The notes below the pieces were generated by a model. That model ran no database searches. It saw nothing but the letters and a program-made list of their open reading frames with translations, and had not been told where the DNA came from. Positions 57,828-58,851 of a DNA stretch of 64,000 bases are shown one piece after another. Origin of the DNA: Ignisphaera cupida (GTDB taxonomy: Archaea; Thermoproteota; Thermoprotei_A; Sulfolobales; Ignisphaeraceae); the NCBI RefSeq assembly GCF_030186535.1, contig NZ_JASNVW010000002.1, forward strand, positions 82,001 through 146,000, given 5' to 3'. The position numbers and the translations under genes were made by a program. Every line of letters starts with the position of its first letter. Position 1 is the stretch's first letter.

Positions 57828-58364
57828 TTGTTTAGGATATACAGGCTTAGAGATATTGTTAGAATAGATCCATCGAAAATCAACAGACCATTAGAAGAAG
57901 TAGCACTAGATGAGTTGAGAAAGAAGTATGAGGGATTGAAAGATAAAAACCTTGGTATAGTGATTGCTATAACCGATGTTAATGTTGATCCAATGGGTTA
58001 TATACCAATTGGTGATGGAGCACCATACCACAGAGTAGAGTTTACAGCTATTACTTATGTTCCGCTTGTTAATGAGGTTGTAGAAGGTGAGGTTGTAACA
58101 GTTGGGAGAGGTGGGGCAACAATTTCTCTTGGTCCACTTGAGGGATTTGTTCACATACAGCAAATAGCTGATGATGATGTTTCTTATGATGTTGCAAGAA
58201 ATGTTATTGTTTGTAAAAATACAAAGAGATTTGTAATGCAAGGTGATATGGTTAGAGCAAGAATAACTAGTGTTTCCCTAGGTGCTGTAGGTAAACCACC
58301 TAGAGTTACAATGACTATGAGACAACCATATTTAGGAAAACTGGATTGGTTATCAAAGAAATAA
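57828..58364 (+). CDS. rpoE1: RNA polymerase subunit E' (Rpb7-like)
   Basis: A 178-residue RpoE' stalk protein. The N-terminal Rpb7-type domain begins FRIYRLRDIVRIDPSKINRPLEEVALDELRKKYEGL and the S1 RNA-binding domain has EVVEGEVVTVGRGGATISLGPLEGFVHIQQIADDDVS. With RpoF it forms the stalk that aids promoter opening. The start is TTG at 57828. In many archaea spt4 and S24e follow; here a guide RNA and an unknown gene come next. Confidence 0.95.
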   Translation: MFRIYRLRDIVRIDPSKINRPLEEVALDELRKKYEGLKDKNLGIVIAITDVNVDPMGYIPIGDGAPYHRVEFTAITYVPLVNEVVEGEVVTVGRGGATISLGPLEGFVHIQQIADDDVSYDVARNVIVCKNTKRFVMQGDMVRARITSVSLGAVGKPPRVTMTMRQPYLGKLDWLSKK

Positions 58365-58380
58365 TTTTTCATGTAATTGT

Positions 58381-58430
58381 GTGATGAGCCTTGTAAGGAC
58401 TGAATCAAATGATGTGACTGGGGATGCTGA
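58381..58430 (+). ncRNA. C/D box guide sRNA
   Basis: All four boxes are present in order: C GTGATGA (58381-58387), D' CTGA (58400-58403), C' ATGATGT (58409-58415, one change from consensus) and D CTGA (58427-58430). The guides are GCCTTGTAAGGA (12 bases before D') and GACTGGGGATG (11 bases before D), with a 5-base D'-C' spacer, the tight layout of archaeal dual-guide RNAs that direct 2'-O-methylation. By the D+5 rule, targets would carry UCCUUACAAGGC (methylated at its fifth base, U) and CAUCCCCAGUC (fifth base, C). I could not match them to an rRNA or tRNA. It lies between rpoE1 and a gene starting 4 bases later. Confidence 0.8.
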
Positions 58431-58434
58431 TTAA

Positions 58435-58851
58435 ATGGTTTGGATTAGTAAAAGAGAAATAGCGTACTATATAATTCTCAGAAAAGCTTTCAATAACAGA
58501 ACCTTTAACTTAGGCGAGGCACTTGATATACTATCCCTTTTTGGGTCAAAAAATATTGGAAGAAAAACTATAAAAAAACTCGTAAAAAAAGGATTTATAG
58601 AAAAAGTTGATGAATTGAACTACAATGTTGTTGAAATTGAAAAAGCCTTTGAAAAACTTTTAAATCAATACATGATGCAAAGACTCTTTAAAAACCTAAA
58701 GTCGAAAGGATACAATGTAAAAATTGATGTAAAAAACAACAGCATTGTTTTAACTACATGTGATCAAACTCTTGAAAAGGTAATTAAAATTCTTAATTTC
58801 ATTAGTTTATCAGTGGAATGCGAAGAATATCCAGTTTCCTCTACACTATGA
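58435..58851 (+). CDS. Unrecognised protein with a possible winged-helix start
   Basis: A 138-residue, Lys/Asn/Ile-rich protein in an unknown family. The N-terminal half (about 5-60), SKREIAYYIILRKAF followed by FNLGEALDILSLFGSKNIGRKTIKKLVKKGFIEKVDELNY, looks like a three-helix winged-helix domain ending in a strand, as in DNA-binding or regulatory proteins. The second half alternates helix and strand (LEKVIKILNFISLSVECEEY). Its ATG is four bases after a C/D box sRNA, so the sRNA would be in its leader or made from the same transcript. It stands where spt4/S24e are often found after rpoE. Confidence 0.65.
   Translation: MVWISKREIAYYIILRKAFNNRTFNLGEALDILSLFGSKNIGRKTIKKLVKKGFIEKVDELNYNVVEIEKAFEKLLNQYMMQRLFKNLKSKGYNVKIDVKNNSIVLTTCDQTLEKVIKILNFISLSVECEEYPVSSTL

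Follow-up and report, generated by a model that had tools for sequence, protein, structure and literature searches.

The 50-nt segment at positions 58381–58430 of the window, i.e., the whole 64,000-nt stretch of Ignisphaera cupida DNA analysed here, is by its sequence a canonical gene for a dual-guide C/D box sRNA. Its D' guide is predicted to direct 2'-O-methylation of U34, the wobble base of tRNA-Val(UAC), and the D guide of the ancestral form probably served C17. We put the probability of this joint reading at roughly 0.88.

Architecture of the sRNA gene

On the + strand the element reads GTGATGA-GCCTTGTAAGGA-CTGA-ATCAA-ATGATGT-GACTGGGGATG-CTGA. The features of the locus, together with the tRNA gene that is discussed below, are as follows:

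57828–58364, +: upstream gene rpo7 (RNA polymerase subunit E'/Rpb7), with Pfam domains SHS2_Rpb7-N and S1
58381–58430, +: dual-guide C/D box sRNA, C box to D box (sequence, Rfam scan, shuffles and alignment)
58381–58387, +: C box GTGATGA; TGAT is invariant in a 13-species alignment
58388–58399, +: D' guide GCCTTGTAAGGA, 12 nt; positions 2–12 counted from the D' box pair with nucleotides 31–41 of tRNA-Val(UAC)
58400–58403, +: D' box CTGA; invariant in the alignment
58404–58408, +: D'–C' spacer ATCAA, 5 nt
58409–58415, +: C' box ATGATGT; TGATG is invariant in the alignment
58416–58426, +: D guide GACTGGGGATG, 11 nt; no supported target in Ignisphaera cupida
58427–58430, +: D box CTGA; TGA is invariant in the alignment
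58435–58851, +: downstream gene for a 138-residue winged-helix protein conserved in the order (open reading frame, predicted fold and homologues)
G000:C9:46779–46853: tRNA-Val(UAC) gene, carrying CCTTACRAGGC

As in archaeal C/D sRNAs generally, the C (RUGAUGA) and D (CUGA) boxes lie near the ends and the C' and D' boxes inside, and guides of 12 and 11 nt, within the usual range of about 10–12 nt, are combined with a short spacer of 5 nt. The initial annotation had placed all four boxes in 50 bases with precisely these lengths, and every one of them is exact on direct reading. Its assignment of the element to the dual-guide C/D box sRNAs is likewise borne out by the exact boxes, by conservation and by shuffling. 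A strict C/D descriptor run over both strands of the window matched this element only. Among 60 Markov-shuffled windows it had no match at all, and a looser version averaged 0.017 matches per shuffled window. Conservation in the 13-species alignment is seen at the boxes, over the greater part of the D' guide (CTNGTAAG) and at a GG dinucleotide of the D guide; the spacer and the flanks vary.

A permissive Rfam scan of 58340–58470 returned ten weak matches, all to C/D box families and all on the + strand, the best of which, sR2 (RF01139, 18.8 bits) and snoPyro_CD (RF00095, 17.6 bits), cover the whole element. These two families share its box layout but have unrelated guides, and the scores, 18.8 of 42 and 17.6 of 45 bits, are far under the gathering thresholds. 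None of the ten matches reaches its own threshold, and at the gathering threshold neither the window nor any of 18 orthologous loci gave a C/D family. The family is new by comparison with Rfam, although its kind is well known. Thermodynamic folding of the element gave no signal (z −0.08), as expected for a C/D sRNA. A sigma-70 type promoter scan was also run at the locus; a model of this type is uninformative for archaea.

The D' guide and the wobble base of tRNA-Val(UAC)

Positions 2–12 of the D' guide form 11 contiguous Watson–Crick pairs with nucleotides 31–41 of tRNA-Val(UAC), namely C31, C32, U33, U34, A35, C36, A37, A38, G39, G40 and C41. The N+5 nucleotide, facing guide position 5, is U34, the first anticodon base, with the anticodon position taken from ARAGORN. 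The pairing exceeds the published criterion of at least 9 consecutive Watson–Crick pairs to a stable RNA including the N+5 site (PMC4644070). In the 1.74-Mb genome, CCTTACRAGGC occurs in two places only, in antisense within the sRNA and in the tRNA-Val(UAC) gene. When 400 shuffled D' guides were compared with the 42 tRNAs, a score of 11 was never reached and a score of 10 was reached twice. Indeed, the match appears selective among isoacceptors: tRNA-Val(CAC) and tRNA-Val(GAC) have C or G at position 34 and mismatch exactly at the N+5 nucleotide, and therefore the D' guide is specific for the UAC form.

The initial annotation had recognised neither predicted target and had proposed a search of the organism's own 16S, 23S and tRNAs. 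The 12-base string UCCUUACAAGGC has no exact tRNA match owing to its first base, since guide position 1 (A) lies unpaired opposite C30 of tRNA-Val(UAC). Yet the remaining 11 pairs place the D' target in the anticodon arm of that tRNA, with U34 at N+5, so that the earlier statement now holds in Ignisphaera cupida for the D guide, which has no supported target there. Taken together, the length, uniqueness and position of the D' pairing lead us to infer that this guide directs 2'-O-methylation of U34. Predicted tRNA sites of archaeal sRNAs are not always seen methylated (PMC4644070, PMC7668247), and tRNA-Val(UAC) is not among the tRNAs reported in the accessible part of PMC7668247.

Conservation, gene context and the D guide

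A DNA search with the element located it in sister species at the same site, flanked by rpo7 and the winged-helix gene, and its boxes are kept there; their absence from close relatives would, according to the initial annotation, have spoken against the assignment. Further orthologues were obtained by a protein search for the winged-helix gene followed by reading of the DNA upstream. When 229 genomes of the class were scanned for the motif C box–guide–D' box, 57 had matches, some of them to other guides. In Ignisphaera and many other families of the order, orthologues are neighbours of this winged-helix gene, in sense or antisense orientation.

Among 25 species in which both the sRNA and tRNA-Val(UAC) were read, 20 retain an uninterrupted run of 9 or more pairs that includes guide position 5. 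Position 37 of the tRNA is either A or G; among the 20, a C–G pair replaces the T–A pair of the window in four species (G001, G003, G013 and G014) and a T–G wobble is found in four. A C–A mismatch occurs at this position in two Sulfolobaceae-like species (G046 and G055). At position 38, three species of family f7 show an A–C mismatch. The covariation at position 37 is weak and by itself not significant (Fisher p ~0.06, kinship ignored); hence, our argument is based on the pairing as a whole and on its conservation. The boxes and the D' guide are conserved in related species, and the pairing to tRNA-Val outlasts most sequence changes among the orthologues.

The genomic context raises the question of a role in cis. 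The stop codon of rpo7 (58362–58364) lies 16 nt ahead of the C box. On the other side, the D box is followed by TTAA and then by the ATG at 58435, so the distance of 4 bases from the 3' end to the next start codon, as annotated initially, is correct. The codon directly before this ATG is TAA, so the element is non-coding in that frame. The downstream gene, which the initial annotation had not recognised, indeed shows no Pfam or NCBIfam family in its 138-residue product. The predicted model has a mean pLDDT of 91 and comprises a winged-helix domain and a variable C-terminal part; its resemblance to the winged-helix regulators MecI, BlaI, MarR and TrmBL2 is weak (E ~0.01), so no function was assigned. 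In Ignisphaera, the winged-helix gene sits between rpo7 and alba.

Most archaeal C/D sRNAs have no promoter of their own and are cut from longer transcripts. Few of them (7%) overlap the 5' end of a gene, and where they do the downstream gene is expressed less (PMC7994747); the arrangement seen here is therefore uncommon but known. In Sulfolobus acidocaldarius, moreover, L7Ae represses translation through a k-turn in an mRNA leader (PMC5539422). The element could accordingly act mainly in cis, as a leader k-turn of the winged-helix mRNA at which L7Ae or the whole sRNP represses or times translation, with guiding secondary or absent. Both precedents favour such a role, as does the position of the D box, which in sense-oriented species of the Ignisphaera family with a visible start lies 0–11 nt from the start codon and in most Sulfolobaceae-like species very near it. 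Nevertheless, we consider a mainly cis-acting element improbable. In the Ignisphaera family (f1) and a Sulfolobaceae-like family (f11), the sRNA has the same orientation as the gene and in most cases lies next to its start codon, but in families f7 and f3, as well as in G019, G029 and G039, it is found upstream on the strand opposite to the gene. In family f2, both guides are intact although a copy of the winged-helix gene was not detected, and in G091 the sRNA lies well upstream of the start codon. A purely cis-acting k-turn, furthermore, would not keep its D' guide letter for letter with tRNA-Val. The antisense and gene-less orthologues indicate that an effect in cis is not the core function of the sRNA. 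The suggestion that the sRNA is cut from an mRNA leader thus fits this locus as a possibility but does not extend to the family as an essential feature. Given the L7Ae precedent, the sRNA may, besides guiding, influence the winged-helix gene in cis.

Outside Ignisphaera and its closest relatives, the D guide is UAACCAGGCUN, with the variants AACUAGGCUG, AACCGGGCUA and GACCAGGCUU. In 11 species outside the Ignisphaera clade, it pairs over 9–12 contiguous positions with the D-arm of the species' own tRNA-Val; the target is nucleotides 13–22, (U)AGCCUGGUUA, and the N+5 nucleotide is C17. The ancestral sRNA could therefore modify two sites of one tRNA, and the AGCCUGG string is common to other tRNAs as well. 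In Ignisphaera, the D guide has diverged to a GGGGAU core and the fit to the D-arm is lost. Tested against the 42 own tRNAs and the visible 1.2 kb of the own 23S rRNA, GACTGGGGATG gave nothing beyond chance and no site with at least 9 pairs. The tRNA T-arms with AUCCCCG were considered as a further candidate target, forming 6–8 pairs with several orthologous D guides; they were rejected, since many tRNAs have this string and the N+5 nucleotide would fall in the T-stem. The Ignisphaera D guide may be an orphan or may have a new target.

Most archaeal C/D sRNAs target rRNA (PMC7994747), even if one third have no rRNA target (PMC4644070, PMC7668247). The sRNA might then guide an rRNA site, with the tRNA-Val match a coincidence, and some orthologous D guides do pair with 16S or 23S rRNA over 9–12 positions. 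The own 16S and most of the own 23S gene read N (5 kb), and rRNA targets were searched via relatives and in the visible part of the own 23S; a D-guide site may lie in the masked stretch. In the rRNA of two sister species, the best score of the D' guide is 7.5. The D guide forms 9–10 pairs at some sites of the sister-species rRNA operons, which is within chance, as 31% of shuffled guides reach 9, and none of its rRNA sites is common to the orthologues. An rRNA guide with a merely coincidental tRNA-Val match is very unlikely. Finally, words containing TGA are common near gene ends, but a chance arrangement of TGATGA and CTGA words in an A+T-rich spacer is refuted in practice by the shuffles, the order-wide conservation and the match between guide and tRNA, and its probability is negligible.

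Relation to known guide systems and implications

In the mechanism favoured here, the sRNA would be part of a longer transcript, either that of the rpo7 operon or that of the winged-helix gene. L7Ae, Nop5 and fibrillarin would bind the k-turn (C/D) and the k-loop (C'/D'), whereupon the RNA would be trimmed or circularised to ~50–60 nt. The D' guide would pair with C31–C41 of tRNA-Val(UAC), and fibrillarin would 2'-O-methylate the wobble base U34, opposite guide position 5, following the N+5 rule taken from the literature. The ancestral D guide would have led to methylation of the D-loop C17 in the same tRNA-Val and in other tRNAs with AGCCUGG, and this second guide has changed in Ignisphaera cupida. 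The genome's C/D catalogue, with 32 pattern matches versus 1 for the reversed pattern, comprises about two dozen further C/D sRNAs, so that the C/D machinery is, judged from the sRNA genes alone, in use.

C/D sRNAs for wobble positions have been described in Pyrococcus for tRNA-Leu(CAA), Leu(UAA) and Met, and for tRNA-Trp as intron/sR50 (reviewed in PMC7994747). The sRNA described here resembles them in its dual-guide C/D layout, in the N+5 nucleotide at position 34 and in the use of one sRNA per isoacceptor. It differs in its target, tRNA-Val(UAC), in being a stand-alone gene beside a protein gene, and in the ancestral form, which aims both guides at one tRNA. A published sRNA-guided case in Sulfolobus, of the same archaeal order, concerns U34 of tRNA-Gln(UUG). 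In that case, as predicted here from sequence, a single tRNA is methylated both at U34 and within its D-loop; however, the tRNA and the guides are different, the D-loop site is C17 here and G18 there, and the D-loop guide has been lost in Ignisphaera. In bacteria, TrmL 2'-O-methylates the tRNA wobble base (PMC5372725). The chemistry at position 34 (Cm34/Um34) is the same as that predicted for the sRNA, whereas TrmL is a protein-only enzyme that acts on two Leu isoacceptors without a guide RNA.

Two further C/D sRNAs of this genome have guides for wobble uridines. The one at L249 1501–1549 (− strand; G000:C1:617949–617997) has the D' guide AGGTTAAAAGCG, which forms 10 Watson–Crick pairs with tRNA-Lys(UUU), and the one at L267 1501–1551 (+ strand; G000:C6:20035–20085) has the D guide TGCTTAGAAGGG, which forms 10 with tRNA-Arg(UCU); in both, the N+5 nucleotide is U34. 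The latter sRNA lies upstream of a tRNA-Ser gene. In related genera (L274, L275, L276 and L283, in G011, G014, G017 and G013), a different C/D sRNA has the second guide CCTCGTGAGG, which fits the anticodon arm of tRNA-Val(CAC) with C34 at N+5. Another (L277, G037:C1:61394–61415, also in G111, G081, G053 and G175) has the guide GCTCGAAAGG, which fits tRNA-Glu(UUC) with U34 at N+5. Both fits were made by eye from tRNA sequences already read. Two other C/D sRNAs of the genome, L264 (G000:C4:45238–45284, guide TTTAGCTGAGCT) and L269 (G000:C6:38984–39031, guide GGCTGAGCTACT), show a 12-position pairing with a D-arm common to many tRNAs.

Combined with the Gln(UUG) case, the Lys(UUU), Arg(UCU), Val(CAC) and Glu(UUC) guides hint that sRNAs may be widely employed in wobble methylation. 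Tentatively, one may go further and propose that in this order a set of C/D sRNAs, each dedicated to a single isoacceptor, serves U34 ribose methylation (Val UAC, Lys UUU, Arg UCU, Glu UUC in relatives and Gln UUG in Sulfolobus), as an RNA-guided counterpart of the protein enzymes acting on U34 elsewhere, and that the tRNA-Val guide has remained next to the winged-helix gene as long as the order has existed, perhaps because it controls this gene as well. This broader proposal is considerably less probable than the guide function itself.

The ancestral D guide bears on modifications that have already been observed. By mass spectrometry, the tRNAs of S. acidocaldarius were reported to bear a methylated C or A at position 17, the modification being most probably 2'-O-, and several of their monomethylated nucleotides were left without an enzyme or sRNA assigned to them (PMC7668247). 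From the pairing, the orthologous sRNA would be responsible for the position-17 methyl group and is thus a candidate guide for these methylations without an assigned enzyme. Collectively, a guide RNA that is conserved across a thermophilic archaeal order and absent from Rfam gains a concrete, isoacceptor-specific candidate target, and the observations suggest that ribose methylation of the wobble uridine is a task repeatedly taken on by archaeal C/D sRNAs.
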